A stretch of 27,577 nt of DNA from IMG/VR virus record IMGVR_UViG_3300025732_000213, positions 1 through 27,577 of that record; one strand, 5' to 3'. Both the position numbers and the translations under genes were made by a program. Of the stretch, positions 2,272 to 22,728 are shown piece by piece (within the stretch, counting starts at the first letter, position 1; every line of letters starts with the position of its first letter). A model generated the notes under the pieces. The model had not been told where the DNA came from, did no database searches, and saw nothing but the letters and a program-made list of their open reading frames with translations. The DNA comes from a virus.

Positions 2272-4540
2272 TGTGAACAAGTGGATATTGTGTTTCTAGC
2301 TTACCAAATGAGTAATCTTGCCCAATATCAAAAGAAATGCCAATAGGGCAACCTGAAATAGAAATGCCACGATCTCGTTGAATACAAGTTTGAATAATAC
2401 TTTGGTATTCTTCCACTTCTGAGTCTGGTACTTCTGCTAGAATCGAGTCATGAACAAGAGCAAAAATTTTGCTTTTCATTTTTCGAGCTTTCAGTTCTTC
2501 ATGCGCTTCGAATGCGCCAATCAAATTAACGTCAGATGCTGGAGACTGCACCATGAAGTTAAGACCTGAGCGTACTTCGTGATCTACGATACCTACATTG
2601 TCAGACTTTACGTTAGGCAATCGACGCTTACGCCCAAAGTGTGAGTAAATAAACGCGTTGGCGCGAATAAAATCACACGTTGTATCAATCCAGTTCTTTA
2701 GACCATAAAAAGTACCAAAGTATTCATCGATAACTTGCACAGCTTCTTTGAGCGTAATATTTCCGCCATCTTTTTGCACTTGTGACCAGATTTTGCGCGG
2801 CCCCGCTCCATACATAATGCCGAAAGTAATAGCCTTGGAGTATTGACGTTCTTGCTTATAGAGAGTTTCTACTTCTTCGACACTGCAAGGCAGACGAAAT
2901 ACTCGCTTAGCAATAGACGAGTGAAAGTTACCTCCAGATACAAATACTTCTTGCAAAGCCTTATCTTTTGACAATACAGAAGCTACATATACTTCGGCGG
3001 TAACCAAGTCTGCGGAAACAATCTTATGTCCGGGAGCGGCAAGAATACAACCTTTTACGAGCGGGTTATCTCGTGGAAACTGTTGAGCATTAAGCTTGCC
3101 ACTAGAAGATAGCCGTCCAGAAGTAGTTACATGCAAGTTAAACCCGGTACGAATTCGTGAGTCTTTGTCAAGTTGTGGCAAAATTTTATCGATATAAGTA
3201 TTTTTAATTTTACCCATTTTACGCACATTAAGAATTAAGCCAGGAATTTCATGTCGATGGCTAAGTTCTTTTAATACTTCAGAATCAGTTGAGTCTGCAC
3301 CTTTATCTGTCTTTTTGCCTGTAGGAGCAAGCCCTACAAAGTCAAAAAGAAGTTCTCGGAGCTGCATAGTGCTATTAGGGTTGAAGTCTCCATTTGCATC
3401 TGTATAAGCTTGAACTTGTGGGTATTCTTGCAGTTTTTGTACTGCTTCATAAATCTCTGTTTGCAAAGTTTCTTGTGCAACAAGAAGTCTTTGACGTGAA
3501 AAGGGAATGCCTGCATCTTGCATTTCAATGATAAAAGCAGTTGCAGGAATAAGAATATTATAATAAACATTTTTAAACTTTTGATTTTTTTGAATCAAAG
3601 GATTAAATTTAGCATGTAGAATATAAGTAACAAGAGCATCCATTGATGCGTATACTTTAATCACATCAAAAGGAATCATTCCAAAGTTGAAGTTATCTTT
3701 GAGAACACCAGTCTTTTTACGGTACTCTTCAATCCAATCATACATTGGCTTTTCGTAGTCGCCATAAGGCGTATATTTAAGAGCTAGGCTTTTCAGACCG
3801 TGTGTACCTACAGTTTCATCGAGCACATAGTGCTGCAGCATCGTATCCTCAAATTTAGGAAATTTGAAGCCAAACTGATACTGGAAATATCCAATATCAA
3901 ACTTGGAGTTGTGAAACACTACTGTCTTAGTATTAAACAAATATTGAAGACGCTCTTCTACTTCTTCGTCAATTACATCTGTCGTAATATACACACCCTT
4001 AATGCCATCATAGCACATCGAAATGCCAAGCATATGACCATTACGATGATAAAGACTGGTCGCTTCGGAGTCAAGGGCTACGAACGCGGAGGAATGAGCA
4101 ATTGCAGCTTCAATATACTCTAGTGCTTCTTCTTTAGTCTCAATTCCGCGAGTAATGCTATCGTCTACTTTGACGGCGGTAACTTCTCCAGTAATGTACT
4201 TGATAATATTATCCCTAGATTCAACCCAAGTTTTTTCTACTTCTGGCTTAAATGCAAGCATTGCTGGGTTAATGACAGGAAGAAACTTATCGTCCACTAC
4301 TCGTCCGCTGTACTCGGTGACAGATTTAAGATTAGCAAGATATTTGCAAGCTTCTGAGCCTACAAGAATAATCCAATCATAGTTATCTGTATTCAATTGA
4401 AGATCAACATTTTTCTTCAATACTTTGGCTACAGTAGCGTCTGAACAAAGACTAAATTGTTCAAATTCAAATGATCCATTAAAAAGTTTATCGTAATTAT
4501 TACGACTTGGTTTTGCTTCAACAATTGCTACATTAGCCAT
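2261..4540 (-). CDS. Family A DNA polymerase with 3'-5' exonuclease
   Basis: This 759-residue protein is the replicative polymerase. Residues about 55-115 (ILVGSEACKYL, then FLPVINPAML) resemble the uracil-DNA-glycosylase-like N-terminal domain of some phage polymerases. The proofreading exonuclease carries Exo I D157/E159, Exo II N211/D215 and Exo III Y297/D301. In the polymerase domain, motif A has D511 and E516 in DLVTAEV, where DYSQIEL is usual. Motif B has R565, K569, F573 and Y577-G578. Motif C is HDS at 697-699. The Phe at the nucleotide-discrimination position resembles E. coli Pol I. The gene overlaps primase by 8 bp upstream. All catalytic residues are present, so it is probably active. 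Confidence 0.96.
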   Translation of the reverse strand: MANVAIVEAKPSRNNYDKLFNGSFEFEQFSLCSDATVAKVLKKNVDLQLNTDNYDWIILVGSEACKYLANLKSVTEYSGRVVDDKFLPVINPAMLAFKPEVEKTWVESRDNIIKYITGEVTAVKVDDSITRGIETKEEALEYIEAAIAHSSAFVALDSEATSLYHRNGHMLGISMCYDGIKGVYITTDVIDEEVEERLQYLFNTKTVVFHNSKFDIGYFQYQFGFKFPKFEDTMLQHYVLDETVGTHGLKSLALKYTPYGDYEKPMYDWIEEYRKKTGVLKDNFNFGMIPFDVIKVYASMDALVTYILHAKFNPLIQKNQKFKNVYYNILIPATAFIIEMQDAGIPFSRQRLLVAQETLQTEIYEAVQKLQEYPQVQAYTDANGDFNPNSTMQLRELLFDFVGLAPTGKKTDKGADSTDSEVLKELSHRHEIPGLILNVRKMGKIKNTYIDKILPQLDKDSRIRTGFNLHVTTSGRLSSSGKLNAQQFPRDNPLVKGCILAAPGHKIVSADLVTAEVYVASVLSKDKALQEVFVSGGNFHSSIAKRVFRLPCSVEEVETLYKQERQYSKAITFGIMYGAGPRKIWSQVQKDGGNITLKEAVQVIDEYFGTFYGLKNWIDTTCDFIRANAFIYSHFGRKRRLPNVKSDNVGIVDHEVRSGLNFMVQSPASDVNLIGAFEAHEELKARKMKSKIFALVHDSILAEVPDSEVEEYQSIIQTCIQRDRGISISGCPIGISFDIGQDYSFGKLETQYPLVHNVA

Positions 4541-5366
4541 ACAATACCTCTTTTAATTTTTGAACTTGATTAGTAGTCAGTTCGCCTGGATCTTTGTTAT
4601 CTTTAAGAGTATGAATTTTTGCGTCTAAATCTATTTTTTCTGCAATATCTTTTACTTTTTTAGCGCCCTCTATACCCGCTTTATCACTATCATAAAGTAC
4701 GTCGATGCCTTCTACACCTTGAAGCTTGAGCAAGTCAAATGAAGTATCTCGCACTGTAGTTACTCCGAACGATGTAACAACATTTGTTAAGCCTTTGTCG
4801 TGTAGATTTAACATATCAAAGATGCCTTCTACTAAAATTATTCTACCATTAATAGGTGTTACTTGAGGAAATAAAGGAAGAGCTGAACCACTTGGATGAA
4901 TATAATATTTTTTACTTAACGTGCCGGTATCATCCCTTCCTATAAAAGCAACTACTCTACCTGTAATATCTGTAATTGGAAATACTACTCGATTCATGAA
5001 TTCTTTCTGCGCACTTCTAAAAGCTCCAAACTTTTTATAAGTTTCTGCTGAGATATTTCTCCAGTTACTTTCATATTCGATTGCGTCGATAGGTAAGGAA
5101 TAGCCAATACTTTGTTGTCGTATTTTTTCTATCTTTCTTTTTACCTTTTCACGCATTAATTCTAACTTATTCGGGGCGTGTTTGTAAAGAAAAAAAATAT
5201 TTCCCTTGAAGCCACACGCCATACACTGAAAAATGCCAAGAACTTTATCAATTCTCATACTAGGGTTGGAATCGTCGTGCTCAGGATTAAGGCATTTTAC
5301 TAAAAAATCTTTTCCACTAATATTGTAAGCAATCTTTTTTGTATTTAAAAGTTCTTCTACGGTCAT
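4533..5366 (-). CDS. DnaG-type DNA primase (zinc ribbon plus TOPRIM)
   Basis: This 277-residue primase makes RNA primers for lagging-strand synthesis. The N-terminal zinc site is C25, H30, C48 and C51, a CHC2-like arrangement that recognises template. The TOPRIM core has E180-G181 in LVEGIFDML and D226/D228 in YDSDKAG, followed by KDPGEL at 259-264. It is much shorter than bacterial DnaG and lacks a separate helicase-binding C-domain. The DnaB-type helicase is encoded immediately upstream with a 4-bp ATGA overlap, so the two are likely coupled and act together. Confidence 0.94.
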   Translation of the reverse strand: MTVEELLNTKKIAYNISGKDFLVKCLNPEHDDSNPSMRIDKVLGIFQCMACGFKGNIFFLYKHAPNKLELMREKVKRKIEKIRQQSIGYSLPIDAIEYESNWRNISAETYKKFGAFRSAQKEFMNRVVFPITDITGRVVAFIGRDDTGTLSKKYYIHPSGSALPLFPQVTPINGRIILVEGIFDMLNLHDKGLTNVVTSFGVTTVRDTSFDLLKLQGVEGIDVLYDSDKAGIEGAKKVKDIAEKIDLDAKIHTLKDNKDPGELTTNQVQKLKEVLYG

Positions 5367-15508: not shown

Positions 15509-18500
15509 TTAATCCCTCAATACAAAATAGTACACATTTCTGGATTGAGATGTGCCGCCTGCTTCTACTCTATCAATTTTTAGTGTAAAAGAACCGCTAG
15601 CTATAGTATAATAATAAGCTAATTTTGGATCATAATCTCCATGCTCTGTTATAAGAATTTGCCAAGAGTCATCTGTAGGGCTTATGCCGGTTACAGATAT
15701 AGCCGAAGAGCTATAAGTTGCTACTGTAGTTCCCACTGTTATAGTTGCAGACCCTGCAGTTACTAATCTTGGAACTCTACTACTAACTGCGAGAACTTTT
15801 GTTTCAGAGCTATTGTATATTTCTAGTCCGTAGTTTGAAGTGTTAATATCAGATGCAGTAGTAGTTGAAAAAGTTCCTGCAACTCCCCCTATGGTAAGGG
15901 TAGTAGATGTTGTTATATTTTGTTGATTTGAAGAAGTGTGCCTTACTTTAAAAGTATCATTTACTGAAGCGGTTCCATTTTGCGAAGTCCAAGTGCCTGA
16001 ATTATTCTTTTCATACTCCCCATTTGAAATGCTAACTGCTGTCGTTGTATTAATTCCTGTCACAGTTATAGCATTACTAGCGTATACTTGATTTTTTGTG
16101 GCTCCATTAATTGAATTAAAACTAAACTGATCGGGGGTACTGTCCGTAGCAGAACCAGCTGTTGTAATAGAATAAGTATCACTAGTGCCCCCTACAGTAA
16201 GAGTAGTTGAAACTGCGGTTCCTGTAAGAGTAGAAGAAGTTAACCTTAGTTGAAATTTATCATTTACACTAGCTGTGCCATTTGATGCAGTATAGGCCCC
16301 CCAGGCCCCGCCAGTAAATTTTCTATATTGACCACTCCCTCCAGAAATACTTACTGTTACTGAAGTGTCTATTCCTGTAATAGTTACTTCATTTGAAGTA
16401 TAAGGTAAATTAGTAGCGGCATCCGAGACATCTGTAAAGCTAAAAGCATCTGGAGTACTGTCAAAATTATTTCTAGTTATATTATAAGTAGTAGCATTTA
16501 CATGTAATCCATCTCCACCACTGCTGGTAGCTACATTTGCTGTTATATAGTAAGTTTTAGTCGCTCCAATAGCTGGAACATTGCTTATAGTCATAAGCAC
16601 ATCAGTAGTAGCTGACCCTAAAATAGTTCCAGAATAACTATCTAATCTTACATAGTACGTTGTGTTTGTACTACCATTTTGTACAGTAACTGTATGGGTG
16701 CTAGCTCCCACAACTATAGGGCTGTTAGTAGCGGTAGTTATGCTAGTATCGGGTGCAATGTATCCTGCGGTATAAGCAACACTAGTACTATAAAGTGATG
16801 CGTTAGTATTACGAGAAGCCCAGTAGTATCTAGTAGTGCCTCTGGCTTGAGTGAAGGTATTACCAGCCTGCCAGCCAGTAGACGGCAATGAGTTAGTAGT
16901 AGTCTGAGCGTACTGTAGTGTACCTCCGCCCACTCCATTAACAGACATATTAACTGTTGCAGTAACATTAACTGCAGCGGCGTTATTATCAGTTACTGAC
17001 CCTATAACGGGATCTTGGTTACGAGTTATAGTATAAGTAGTAGCGTTAAAATGAGTAGTATTGTCTCCTCCACTAGCTGTACTTCTAGTAGCGGTTATAT
17101 AATAAGTACTAGTACTACCTGCGGCTGGAACATCATTTACAGTAATAGCAACACTAGTAGTACTAGGAGTTCCAGTAGCTAATATGGTTCCAGTATAGCT
17201 ACCAGACCTTACATGGTAAGTAGTATTAGAATCCCCATTAGCTATAGTTACCTGATGGCTAGTAGCTCCTGGAACTACAGGGCTATTGGTTGTCGTTGTA
17301 ATAGTACTATCAGGAGATAAATAACCAACTGCATCTGCAACACTAGCGCTATAAAGTGATACATTAGTATTACGAGAAGCCCAATAGTATCTAGTAGCTC
17401 CTCTTGGATGAGTAAAGGTATTACCGGCCTGCCAGCCAGTGGCCGGTAATGCGTTAGTAGTAGTCTGAGCGTACTGTAGTGTACCTCCACCTACTCCATT
17501 AACAGACATATTAACTGTTGCAGTAACATTGGCTGCAGCAGCATTATCATCTGTTACTGAGCCTATAACGGGATCTTGATTACGCGTTATAGTGTAAGTT
17601 GTAACATTAAAATGAGTAGTATTATCTCCACCACTAGCTGTACTTCTAGTAGCAGTTATATAATAAGTATTAGTTCCTCCCTGAGCTGGAACGTCATTTA
17701 CAGTAATGGCAACACTAGTAGTACTAGGGATTCCAGTAGCTAATATTGTTCCACTATAGCTACCAGACCTCACATGGTAAGTAGTATTAGAATCCCCATC
17801 AGAGATAGTAACCTGATGGCTAGCAGCTCCTGGAGCTACAGGGCTATTATTTGTAAGCGTAACAGTTGTATCAGGAGATAAATAACCAACTGCATCAGCA
17901 ACACTAGCGCTATAAAGTGATACATTAGTATTACGAGAAGCCCAGTAGTATCTAGTAGCTCCTCTAGGGTGAGCAAAGGTATTACCAGCCTGCCAGCCAG
18001 TGGACGGCAATGAGTTAGTAGTAGTCTGAGCGTACTGTAGTGTACCCCCGCCTACTCCATTAACAGACATATTAACTGTTGCAGTAACATTGGCTGCAGC
18101 AGCATTATCATCTGTTACTGATCCTATGACGGGATCTTGGTTACGAGTTATATTATAAGTATTAACATTAAAGTGTGTGGTATTATCGCCACCACTAACG
18201 GTACTTTTAGTAGCCGTTATGTAATAAGTATTAGTGCTTCCTGCGGCCGGAACATCATTTACAGTAATAGTAACACTAGTAAGAGATGGGGGCGGAGATC
18301 CGGTAGCTAATATTGTTCCAGTATAACTACCGGATCTCACATGATAAGTATCATATTCAGATGCGTCAGCTATTGTAACTTGGTGACTAGTCGCTCCTGG
18401 GGCCACGGGGCTATTATTTGTAAGCGTAACAGTTGTATCAGGCGATAAGTATCCAACGGCATATGTTACACTTGAGCTATAAAGAGATACATTAGTATTA

Positions 18501-19090
18501 CGAGAAGCCCAGTAGTATCTAGTAGTTCCCCGAGCTTGCGTAAATGTATTACTAGCCTGCCAGCCAGTGGCAGGTAATGAGTTAGTAGTAGTTTGAGCAT
18601 ACTGTAATGTACCGCCCCCACTTCCACTAGAGGATAAGTTTACTGTAGTTGTTACTTGACTTACAGCGACATTGTTATCTGTTACACTGCCAATTACGGG
18701 AGCGGTGCCTACTCCATCGTCCCAAACAACAACTCTAGTAAGACCTGCCGATGAACCAAAAACACTTGCAGCTCCAGACCATGTCCAAGTATTTCCTCCA
18801 CTAAAACTTGCTGAAGTTCTATTAAAAGTGGTTCCGTTTACATCCATTGTGGCCCATCCACCGTTAGTAACGGTGCCGGCCATCTTAAAAATAAGGTTTG
18901 AGGCTAGGCTATTTGTATATATTTGGTTAATATTTGCACCAGAGTATATATTACTGGTGCCGTCGACTATACTACCAAAAGCGGCGGGAGCTTGCCCTGT
19001 TCTACTGTAGCCCGCATAAGTGGTTTGAAACGGGGGATCTCCTGTAGTAAAAGCGCCTGTAGTAACTGTTTGGGTATCAAGAGTTGCCAT
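15509..19090 (-). CDS. Large repetitive tail fibre-like protein
   Basis: This 1193-residue Ser/Thr/Asn-rich, cysteine-poor protein has a unique N-terminus (about 1-130). Then come four tandem units of about 187 residues (each starting near PVIGSVTD and containing GGGTLQYAQTTTN, GATRYYWASRNTN and TYHVRSGSY). After these are two units of about 106 residues starting DSTPDAFSF or DSTPDQFSF with Ig-like beta segments, then a C-terminal YGLEI module. Such beta-rich repeats are typical of adhesive tail fibres. Its start shares one base with the stop of the gene upstream (TAATG). Receptor binding is inferred. Confidence 0.82.
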   Translation of the reverse strand: MATLDTQTVTTGAFTTGDPPFQTTYAGYSRTGQAPAAFGSIVDGTSNIYSGANINQIYTNSLASNLIFKMAGTVTNGGWATMDVNGTTFNRTSASFSGGNTWTWSGAASVFGSSAGLTRVVVWDDGVGTAPVIGSVTDNNVAVSQVTTTVNLSSSGSGGGTLQYAQTTTNSLPATGWQASNTFTQARGTTRYYWASRNTNVSLYSSSVTYAVGYLSPDTTVTLTNNSPVAPGATSHQVTIADASEYDTYHVRSGSYTGTILATGSPPPSLTSVTITVNDVPAAGSTNTYYITATKSTVSGGDNTTHFNVNTYNITRNQDPVIGSVTDDNAAAANVTATVNMSVNGVGGGTLQYAQTTTNSLPSTGWQAGNTFAHPRGATRYYWASRNTNVSLYSASVADAVGYLSPDTTVTLTNNSPVAPGAASHQVTISDGDSNTTYHVRSGSYSGTILATGIPSTTSVAITVNDVPAQGGTNTYYITATRSTASGGDNTTHFNVTTYTITRNQDPVIGSVTDDNAAAANVTATVNMSVNGVGGGTLQYAQTTTNALPATGWQAGNTFTHPRGATRYYWASRNTNVSLYSASVADAVGYLSPDSTITTTTNSPVVPGATSHQVTIANGDSNTTYHVRSGSYTGTILATGTPSTTSVAITVNDVPAAGSTSTYYITATRSTASGGDNTTHFNATTYTITRNQDPVIGSVTDNNAAAVNVTATVNMSVNGVGGGTLQYAQTTTNSLPSTGWQAGNTFTQARGTTRYYWASRNTNASLYSTSVAYTAGYIAPDTSITTATNSPIVVGASTHTVTVQNGSTNTTYYVRLDSYSGTILGSATTDVLMTISNVPAIGATKTYYITANVATSSGGDGLHVNATTYNITRNNFDSTPDAFSFTDVSDAATNLPYTSNEVTITGIDTSVTVSISGGSGQYRKFTGGAWGAYTASNGTASVNDKFQLRLTSSTLTGTAVSTTLTVGGTSDTYSITTAGSATDSTPDQFSFNSINGATKNQVYASNAITVTGINTTTAVSISNGEYEKNNSGTWTSQNGTASVNDTFKVRHTSSNQQNITTSTTLTIGGVAGTFSTTTASDINTSNYGLEIYNSSETKVLAVSSRVPRLVTAGSATITVGTTVATYSSSAISVTGISPTDDSWQILITEHGDYDPKLAYYYTIASGSFTLKIDRVEAGGTSQSRNVYYFVLRD
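15845..16462 (-). repeat. Two tandem intragenic repeats, about 318 bp units
   Basis: Two units start at DSTPDAFSF and DSTPDQFSF (plus-strand tactgtc ending at 16462 and 16144, 318 bp apart). They share TAVSTTLTVGG- and NGTASVNDKF-like segments. They are more diverged than the large units. Confidence 0.78.
16465..18700 (-). repeat. Tandem intragenic repeats, about 561-567 bp units
   Basis: The string reading cctat(a/g)acgg on the plus strand recurs at 17001, 17562 and 18123, with a diverged copy at 18690, giving spacings of 561, 561 and 567 bp. Units 2 and 3 are near-identical over long stretches; the outer copies are more diverged. All spacings are multiples of three and the repeats encode the fibre's large modules. 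Confidence 0.9.
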
Positions 19091-21505: not shown

Positions 21506-21892
21506 TTATTTAATCTCAATATACTTGGCGGGGTTAATTGCCCTAGGTTTGAAAGTAATTTTAAGAAGCCCGTCCTGAAACGAAGCATTCGTTACTTCCA
21601 GATTTTTCGGAACAAAAAAACTGCGCCGGAAGGCTTTGCTGCTAATACCCTTATGAATATAAGTTTCTGTACCTTCTGATTTATCGCCTTCAATCGTAAG
21701 CAAACCGATATCAAAATGAATCTTAACACTTTCTTTGGACCAGCCAGGAAGTGCTAGATCAACTCGATATTCATTTTCTGTAAGCTGTACGACATTAAAG
21801 CGAGGAAAAGCATCTACATTTAGATTGCCAAAAAAGTCATTAAAAAACTTGTCACCACCCACAAAGAAGTGGTCCAATAGTCTAGTAGTCAT
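21506..21892 (-). CDS. Small heat-shock protein Hsp20/IbpA type
   Basis: This 128-residue chaperone has an alpha-crystallin domain at about 31-116 (FNVVQLTENEYRVDLALPGW, then LLTIEGDKSE, then the conserved ASFQDGLLKITF). A C-terminal I-x-I motif (IEI, 125-127) docks neighbouring subunits. The N-terminus is short. It holds unfolding proteins in an ATP-independent way. AGGAGATAA precedes the ATG. It lies immediately downstream of the tmRNA and may share its transcript. Confidence 0.94.
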   Translation of the reverse strand: MTTRLLDHFFVGGDKFFNDFFGNLNVDAFPRFNVVQLTENEYRVDLALPGWSKESVKIHFDIGLLTIEGDKSEGTETYIHKGISSKAFRRSFFVPKNLEVTNASFQDGLLKITFKPRAINPAKYIEIK

Positions 21893-21987
21893 ATTTATCT
21901 CCTTGAAAATAAACTTGCCCCTTACGGAAGCAATAATGAAAAGAAAGTTTTTCTGTTGCCAGGGAAACTTTCAAACCCCGAGAAACC

Positions 21988-22032
21988 TTACGCTGCTAGA
22001 GCGAAGTCCTCAGAATAAACATCATCATTTGC
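21988..22032 (-). other. tmRNA tag reading frame
   Basis: The resume codon GCA (22032-22030) opens 14 codons reading ANDDVYSEDFALAA before TAA at 21990-21988. The AND start and ALAA end are typical of proteolysis tags; ALAA is the ClpXP/ClpAP-type degron end. The preceding AAAATAAAC fits the A-rich resume region. Confidence 0.93.
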
Positions 22033-22138
22033 GTTTATTTTAATTTGCATCTTCGACCGAGAAATCTCAATCCTAACGACTTTCGCATTGCCGATTCTCC
22101 GCATTACTTTCGGTTGCCTGTCGAATCCTGACACCCCC

Positions 22139-22164
22139 ACTAAAATATATTGAACAATACACTT
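22139..22164 (-). other. Excised spacer between the two tmRNA pieces
   Basis: An AT-rich 26-base segment joins the encoded CCA of the acceptor piece to the first G of the coding piece. In permuted tmRNAs this loop is removed, giving a 3' CCA and a mature 5' end (the latter by RNase P). Removal here is inferred. Confidence 0.82.
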
Positions 22165-22227
22165 TGGTGGAGGTGGGCGGAATCGAACCGCCGTCCAAAC
22201 TTCTTATTTGTAATACATCAACGAATA

Positions 22228-22299
22228 TGGTGCTGAGATTGGATTCGAACCTTGTCCTATAGTGTTGTCCACCTGTACGTCCCACCGTACTGTCCCAGC
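22228..22299 (-). pseudogene. Degenerate tRNA-like element upstream of tmRNA acceptor piece
   Basis: Acceptor strands GCTGGGA (22299-22293) and TCTCAGC (22238-22232) pair over 7 bp and are followed by A and CCA. A D-stem GTAC/GTAC and a canonical TTCGAAT T-loop are present. However, only two T-stem pairs form, and I cannot draw a 5-bp anticodon stem with a 7-base loop. It is probably a decayed tRNA, a processing signal, or part of the tmRNA precursor. It lies one base before the tmRNA acceptor region. Confidence 0.55.
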
Positions 22300-22309
22300 A
22301 AAAAAATAT

Positions 22310-22654
22310 TTAGAAGTAATATCGAAGCTCGGTCTCTACTCGGCTATACACGTCGCCTTCGAAAGAATCAACTTGAAAGCCTTCTACTTCTCCACGCACT
22401 TCAAAATTATTCCAAAAGGGAAACCTATAGCCAGCTTCGTAAGAAGTGCCTACTTCTCCGTCATATACTACCGTGCCTGCTTCGAGATAGAAGTGATCGC
22501 CTTCCATGCCTACTCGAGCACTATTTAATGCACTATTATCTACATAGTCTTCATCCAGAAAATAGACTTCATTTTCATATTTTGAATAAAACTTGAGTTC
22601 TGCTGCAGCAGGAAGAGCTGCAAACAAAAGAGAAGCTGCAATAATATTTTTCAT
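22310..22654 (-). CDS. Small outer-membrane beta-barrel-like protein
   Basis: This 114-residue protein has a signal peptide (MKNIIAASLLFAALPAAAEL, cleavage after AAA). About 96 mature residues follow with alternating hydrophobic and polar strands, ending in Phe (ETELRYYF), the usual outer-membrane assembly signal. It is acidic. AGGAAA precedes the ATG and a perfect consensus promoter lies about 50 bp upstream. Possible roles include surface exclusion or membrane alteration; none is shown. The tmRNA locus follows immediately. Confidence 0.78.
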   Translation of the reverse strand: MKNIIAASLLFAALPAAAELKFYSKYENEVYFLDEDYVDNSALNSARVGMEGDHFYLEAGTVVYDGEVGTSYEAGYRFPFWNNFEVRGEVEGFQVDSFEGDVYSRVETELRYYF

Positions 22655-22699: not shown

Positions 22700-22728
22700 A
22701 TTATACGTCAAATTGACCTTTTTGTCAA
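22700..22728 (-). promoter_or_regulatory. Perfect-consensus sigma70 promoter
   Basis: Minus-strand TTGACA (22728-22723) and TATAAT (22705-22700) have a 17-bp spacer, an exact match to consensus. It lies 13 bp past the glycosyltransferase stop and is the only promoter I see for the outer-membrane protein gene, tmRNA and hsp20. Confidence 0.93.

Follow-up and report, generated by a model that had tools for sequence, protein, structure and literature searches.

Two-piece tmRNAs have been described in bacteriophages before. Such a tmRNA was reported in 2022 for the OM43 phage Melnitz; of 133 phage tmRNA structures, 53 were two-piece forms, and 50 of these 53 were marine or aquatic (PMC9004378). 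In addition, the models for permuted tmRNAs have been merged and 79 bacteriophage tmRNA sequences have been given (PMC11915505). In line with these reports, about 60 further permuted tmRNA calls were obtained among IMG/VR loci chosen by one acceptor-end pattern. A permuted tmRNA in a phage is therefore of a known kind and offers no architectural novelty, and the suggestion of an earlier note on this DNA, that parts of the architecture may be undescribed in phages, had been overtaken by the Melnitz report. A further point of reference is YrlA, a bacterial Y RNA with a module that mimics tRNA. Here, we analysed a stretch of 27,577 nucleotides from a virus record of IMG/VR, hereafter the window. 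We put at roughly 0.8 the probability that it encodes a functional phage tmRNA and, beside it, a real, conserved structured RNA. We read the latter, a tRNA-like element, as an undescribed RNA that is strongly conserved and often attached to or nested in permuted tmRNA genes.

The DNA polymerase encoded by the contig is 43% identical to its counterparts in T5-like phages, among them Vibrio phage pVp-1. Moreover, the contig contains a NAD-dependent ligase split into two ORFs, a primase, a helicase, PhoH, ThyX and MazG, as well as spanins, an endolysin, tail-fibre assembly genes and seven tRNAs (ARAGORN). From the polymerase and the split ligase we read the phage as probably T5-like. An ORF of 1193 aa (15509-19090) located beside the tail-fibre assembly genes has large internal repeats with a period of about 550 nt and 77-82% identity in self-matches. 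In the region under study, the gene order on the minus strand is OMP-like ORF, tRNA-like element, tmRNA and Hsp20. A sigma-70 promoter-like site (TTGACA-17-TATAAT, minus strand, 22700-22728), identified by a 12/12 match to the consensus, lies upstream of the OMP-like gene and is the probable source of a precursor transcript. The OMP-like ORF itself (minus strand, 22310-22654) encodes a beta-barrel outer-membrane-like protein of 114 aa with a weak Pfam match to Phage_OMP (24.9 bits, below the 27-bit cut-off), and about 10 nt separate its stop from the tRNA-like element that follows. Beyond the tmRNA follow a terminator-like stem-loop with a T-rich tail (minus strand, 21915-21933), of which one was found and 0.7 expected in shuffles, and a gene for an Hsp20-family small heat-shock protein (minus strand, 21506-21892; phrog_432, PF00011).

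The minus strand from 22226 to 21937 encodes a circularly permuted two-piece tmRNA, as indicated by the Rfam model RF04321 and by ARAGORN. The latter called a permuted tmRNA (tmRNA*) at 21897-22257 on the minus strand with the tag ANDDVYSEDFALAA, and RF04321 (tmRNA_permuted) matched 22226-21988 from the first to the last position of the model with 113 bits (E 1.3e-21), the gathering score being 47. The alpha model RF01849 likewise scored above its cut-off (66.3 bits versus 50), whereas the beta model RF01850 remained below its gathering cut-off (76.4 bits versus 84), which is passed by three element-bearing relatives (L131, L129 and L124). Together with the phage genes on both sides, these calls bear out the proposal of the earlier note that a phage carries a permuted two-piece tmRNA, including the hit to permuted covariance models (RF04321 and RF01849) that it had named as a check.

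The piece with the 3' acceptor strand and T-arm is encoded upstream of the piece with the 5' acceptor strand and the coding part, and the two strands are complementary: GGGGGTG (22138-22132) and CACCTCC (22175-22169) form seven pairs, including the alanine identity pair G3-U70. The acceptor piece (minus strand, 22165-22226; ARAGORN, Rfam) comprises a P2 strand, the T-arm GGCGG-TTCGATT-CCGCC and the 3' acceptor strand, after which A73 and an encoded CCA end at 22165. An intervening sequence of 26 nt (minus strand, 22139-22164), delimited by the sequence and the RF04321 alignment and expected to be removed, separates this piece from the coding piece (minus strand, 21937-22138; ARAGORN, Rfam), which contains GGGGGTG, the D-loop-like GGATTCGACAG, a P2 strand, the tag frame and a post-tag pseudoknot. 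The 3' end of the coding piece is uncertain, as the Rfam models place it at 21937-21941 and ARAGORN at 21897. The acceptor strands and the CCA set the inner fragment ends exactly at 22138 and 22165, as had been predicted, and the 7-bp acceptor match and the 7-bp P2-like pairing noticed earlier are both present, the latter between GTATTAC (22216-22210) and GTAATGC (22107-22101); a further segment, ATTC (22226-22223)/GAAT (22097-22094), is found as well. The interval 21912-22226 proposed for the gene, with its low end just past the terminator-like stem (21933-21915), does contain the tmRNA, but the tRNA-like element directly upstream (22299-22228) was missed.

The tag reading frame (minus strand, 21988-22032; ARAGORN) specifies ANDDVYSEDFALAA and a stop. 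A tag of the phage's own had been postulated; the tag is indeed real and complete, but it ends in a conventional ...ALAA degron, that is, a proteolysis signal. In the post-tag pseudoknot (minus strand, 21943-21980), GAAAGTTT (21972-21965) pairs with AAACTTTC (21950-21943) in a helix that is compensated in relatives, and by inspection a second helix between CGGGG (21980-21976) and CCCTG (21964-21960) is possible.

Outside the same phage, the nearest tmRNA that we found is that of L012, which matches at 82% over 304 nt. Its tag, ANDDVYTEEYALAA, is related to ANDDVYSEDFALAA by codon changes of which two are silent and three conservative, and its post-tag helix, GGGAGTTT/AAACTCCC, is compensatory to that of the window; in further phages the strands of this helix are replaced by other complementary strands. 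The G3-U70 pair was present in 74 of 74 distinct phage loci parsed and in 23 of 23 alphaproteobacterial tmRNAs parsed. Of 58 alphaproteobacterial genomes, 52 had an RF04321 score above the cut-off, versus 2 of 229 genomes of one gammaproteobacterial class, and given this specificity the score in the window is not due to chance. A gene for SmpB was found neither in the 27.6-kb contig, which is a fragment, nor in 21 element-bearing contigs, so that SmpB of the host would presumably be needed. We regard the tmRNA gene as complete and probably functional.

With regard to its origin, the T-loop of the window tmRNA is TTCGATT, whereas GGC[A/G]GTA was found in 23 of 23 alphaproteobacterial tmRNAs parsed, and the tmRNA is nearer to the beta than to the alpha model (76.4 versus 66.3 bits). 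Judged by these features, descent from a betaproteobacterium-like host of the permuted lineage is plausible. Among phage permuted tmRNAs, the T-loop conforms to TTCGANT in 65 of 74 and to the alphaproteobacterial GGCAGTA in 6 of 74 (e.g. L274, L275, L285 and L330), and this mixture points to probably more than one bacterial source lineage. A relative of the window with 12 shared proteins (L072) has a permuted tmRNA call of its own with a long, odd predicted tag; the tRNA-like element was not found in the L072 sequence examined.

The tRNA-like element (minus strand, 22228-22299), delimited by its presence in relatives and by covariation, ends in a CCA at 22228, one base before the tmRNA acceptor piece. 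Its helix P1 is formed by GCTGGGA (22299-22293) and TCTCAGC (22238-22232), followed by A and CCA (22230-22228), and encloses a D-like hairpin with the loop GTGGGA (22285-22280), a middle arm consisting of a 3-bp hairpin with the loop GACAA (22269-22265), and a T-like arm, GGTTCGAATCC (22251-22241). Together, the loops of the D-like and T-like arms could build an elbow of the tRNA type.

The window and L012 have a common stretch before the acceptor piece that shows compensatory changes. A pattern derived from it retrieved 19 IMG/VR stretches, and broader patterns retrieved more; the last broad scan fixed GTGGGA, CAG, CAA and GTTCGAATC and left free P1, the pairs of the middle stem and the greater part of the D-like stem. 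The IMG/VR pattern scans yielded at least 129 stretches and at least 66 distinct cores, some from the same phage, and as most records are fragments, the number of distinct copies does not equal that of independent events. An alignment of 59 distinct sequences among the matches listed contains four helices, namely P1 (7 bp), the D-like stem (5 bp), the middle stem (3 bp) and the T-like stem (2 bp). Paired cells amounted to 92.6%, versus 69.8% in shuffled alignments and at most 44.6% in versions slid by one to three columns, and two-sided changes affected 220 cells, versus 61.8 in shuffles, and 14 of 17 pairs. No shuffle matched either measure; the shuffles leave shared ancestry in, and the slid versions also keep it yet score far lower. 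The loops GUGGGA, GACAA and UUCGAAU are nearly invariant across the aligned copies, partly through selection, as exact-pattern scans favour a conserved core. Single-sequence folding gave weak z scores, namely -1.5 for the L012 copy and -0.4 for a shortened form of that in the window, and the case for the structure therefore rests on covariation. RNAalifold favours a GGAC/GUUC hairpin over the T-arm; the full 5-bp T-stem in the copies of L159 and L343 supports the T-arm. Since the middle arm cannot decode, P1 ranges from 5 to 24 bp across copies and CCA is mostly not encoded, the element is not an ordinary tRNA.

We next turn to the distribution of the element. One record per distinct copy among the matches listed, corresponding to 50 contigs, was searched whole with RF04321. 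The model was detected in 35 of these 50 listed contigs, and in 26 of the 50 the element is located within 100 nt of a permuted tmRNA or inside its spacer; of the listed element records longer than 55 kb, 18 of 21 contain a permuted tmRNA and three do not. The element occurs in different settings. In the window and in L012, L127, L131, L136, L178, L185, L280, L285, L291 and others it directly precedes the acceptor piece, which in many relatives begins at once after P1. In at least 14 distinct copies it is nested in the spacer that separates CCA from coding piece; the distance to the coding piece hardly varies among these copies, and the spacer stem runs on into P1. The remaining copies are found in tRNA arrays or alone, with no adjacent tmRNA. 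That the element is present in RNA transcription units of three kinds speaks for a free, trans-acting RNA, as do the variable length of P1, the mostly unencoded CCA and a copy with a T-run hairpin directly behind it (L159). Two spacers (L430, near 5149-5181, and L438, near 3257-3289) have kept the stem, the core of the element being mostly deleted, which suggests that the element is a removable module. It was absent from the examined flanks of the other permuted tmRNA loci in the IMG/VR set chosen by the acceptor-end pattern; as most permuted phage tmRNAs thus lack it, tmRNA function does not depend on it.

Among named phages and plasmids, blastn revealed no relative of the element, the short matches in Vibrio phage F86 and Citrobacter phage Tr1 being due to chance. 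Likewise, the element was not found in 398 proteobacterial genomes, where weak matches reached 33 bits and the five best coincided with tRNA-Lys genes, and by inspection a scan of a genome collection for one subtype contained no genuine copy. The element thus seems so far confined to uncultivated phages. In a contig of an uncultured alphaproteobacterium (OY282459.1; L202 and L248) we observed tandem tRNA-like units with CCA and a period of about 206 nt.

Concerning the identity of the element, Rfam 15 assigned no family at gathering score and returned chance-level matches and an overlap of the unpaired leader of the tmRNA models; the match to RAGATH-32 (E 3.6) was one expected by chance. Neither ARAGORN nor RF00005 called a tRNA at 22299-22228. 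YrlA was considered since pattern matches in sphingomonads and planctomycetes proved to be this RNA; it was rejected because the T-arm comes first in YrlA and the element has no match to RF02553 at E values up to 10 or, in a second search, up to 5, which leaves the common GGTGGGAC as incidental. The L159 copy terminates in CCA, immediately after which comes a GC-rich hairpin with a run of T; this hairpin corresponds to a strong match to the abiF RNA (RF03085, positions 347-383 on the plus strand, 57 bits, E 2e-10). The stretch encodes structural-type ORFs and no recognised abiF gene, and the abiF-like RNA might be a mimic, carried by the phage, of the RNA antitoxin in AbiF defence; as it stands beside a single copy of the element, it was discarded as a hint to the function of the latter. 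A literature search with thin coverage of subscription journals and preprints returned no description of the element.

We envisage that one precursor would comprise the OMP-like gene, the tRNA-like element, the acceptor piece, the spacer and the coding piece. By analogy with established tmRNA biology, the spacer (22164-22139) would be lost, and the acceptor stem and P2 would hold the two pieces together. The alanyl-tRNA synthetase of the host would charge the tmRNA via G3-U70, and SmpB and EF-Tu of the host would bring it to stalled ribosomes, where the tag ANDDVYSEDFALAA would mark incomplete proteins for host ClpXP-type proteases and ribosomes would be recycled during infection. The element may be excised from the same precursor as a separate RNA by tRNA-processing enzymes. 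Once released, it might occupy a recogniser of the tRNA elbow, such as a host nuclease that targets tRNAs or a factor in translation or tRNA maturation. We consider the chances of its acting in trans as a tRNA mimic about even, and a decoy for tRNA-directed defence is, by analogy, our leading guess as to its function. On balance, we lean slightly towards the view that the element is the founding member of a class of phage RNAs not described before, namely tRNA mimics that have an elbow but cannot decode, act in trans and share near-invariant GUGGGA, GACAA and UUCGAAU loops. Such RNAs, spread among diverse uncultivated phages, would be made from tRNA arrays, permuted-tmRNA leaders or excised spacers and may serve, for example, as decoys for tRNA-directed host defence or in regulating translation or the processing of tRNAs.

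The main rival, which concerns the adjacent and nested copies, is that the element is a cis-acting processing signal, where RNase P and 3' tRNA processing would generate the 5' terminus of the acceptor piece or cut the spacer open. The single base between the CCA of the window element and the acceptor piece, the immediate start of this piece after P1 in many relatives and the nearly fixed distance of at least 14 spacer copies to the coding piece are in line with such a role. However, many copies reside in contigs or tRNA arrays without an adjacent tmRNA, most permuted phage tmRNAs lack the element, and the spacer stem survives where the core is mostly deleted, and we therefore regard the cis role as unlikely. 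Still less can be said for a decayed or mis-scored phage tRNA gene: the arm order of tRNA, an acceptor-like P1 of 7 bp, a CCA in some copies, the tRNA arrays around some of them and the coincidence of the five best bacterial cross-matches with tRNA-Lys genes would all agree with it, but strong covariation and near-invariant loops over 59 sequences, a conserved stem of 3 bp capped by a GACAA loop in place of a decoding anticodon arm, and a P1 of free length do not. We consider this reading very improbable and rejected decay on the basis of the covariation.

The tmRNA, in turn, could be a functionless passenger that was, for example, acquired by imprecise excision beside the host ssrA. tmRNA genes are common integration sites, which counts in favour of this scenario. 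Moreover, gene exchange with a prophage has been raised for Melnitz (PMC9004378). Compensated helices and a tag conserved at the protein level between divergent phages, together with the invariant G3-U70 (74/74), nevertheless make a passenger hardly credible. It is also conceivable, though doubtful, that the phage tmRNA acts mainly on the host tmRNA by competing with it or redirecting it, for instance so that host proteins are degraded or trans-translation in the host is blocked. Selective tagging of host proteins has been suggested (PMC9004378), and in E. coli the endogenous tmRNA is inhibited by a tmRNA of mycobacteriophage DS6A that lacks a tag (cited in PMC11915505); a complete tag with a standard ALAA degron, however, fits ordinary rescue. 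We thus favour a functional phage tmRNA engaged in ribosome rescue and, beside it, a conserved structured RNA that may act in trans.

Taken alone, the tmRNA adds one more phage with a ribosome rescue RNA of its own, now apparently a T5-like one. The element carries more weight, as it is defined by covariation, seemingly confined to phages, and would represent tRNA mimicry without decoding ability. Its nesting in the spacer of a split tmRNA in some phages implies that one precursor could yield two functional RNAs. The question why phages keep tmRNAs and tRNA arrays becomes testable, since the accompanying RNAs may counter host defences or control translation.

Finally, we compared both RNAs with known systems. 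Like YrlA (RF02553), the element appears as a small non-decoding tRNA mimic with a UUCGA-type T-loop; in YrlA, however, the T-arm precedes the D-arm and the acceptor hairpin is closed, whereas the phage element has the normal arm order of tRNA. With tRNA (RF00005) it shares the order of acceptor, D-like and T-like arms and weak cross-matches at bacterial tRNA-Lys genes, but it differs in its 3-bp anticodon-like arm with a GACAA loop, a T-stem of mostly 2 bp, a P1 of 5-24 bp and the CCA that is mostly absent. The window tmRNA agrees with the permuted tmRNAs of proteobacteria and cyanobacteria (RF04321/RF01849/RF01850) in gene order, G3-U70, CCA, spacer, P2, tag and post-tag pseudoknot; in contrast to them, it is phage-borne, has a short spacer of 26 nt and a tRNA-like element upstream, and scores below the beta and above the alpha cut-off. 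Rfam revealed no riboswitch in the window. Melnitz and other marine phages with ssrA likewise encode two-piece tmRNAs, for which a role in rescue or tagging has been proposed (PMC9004378). Melnitz, however, belongs to the myophages of the pelagimyophage group and has a glutamine riboswitch linked to its ssrA, whereas the apparently T5-like phage of the window has the tRNA-like element.
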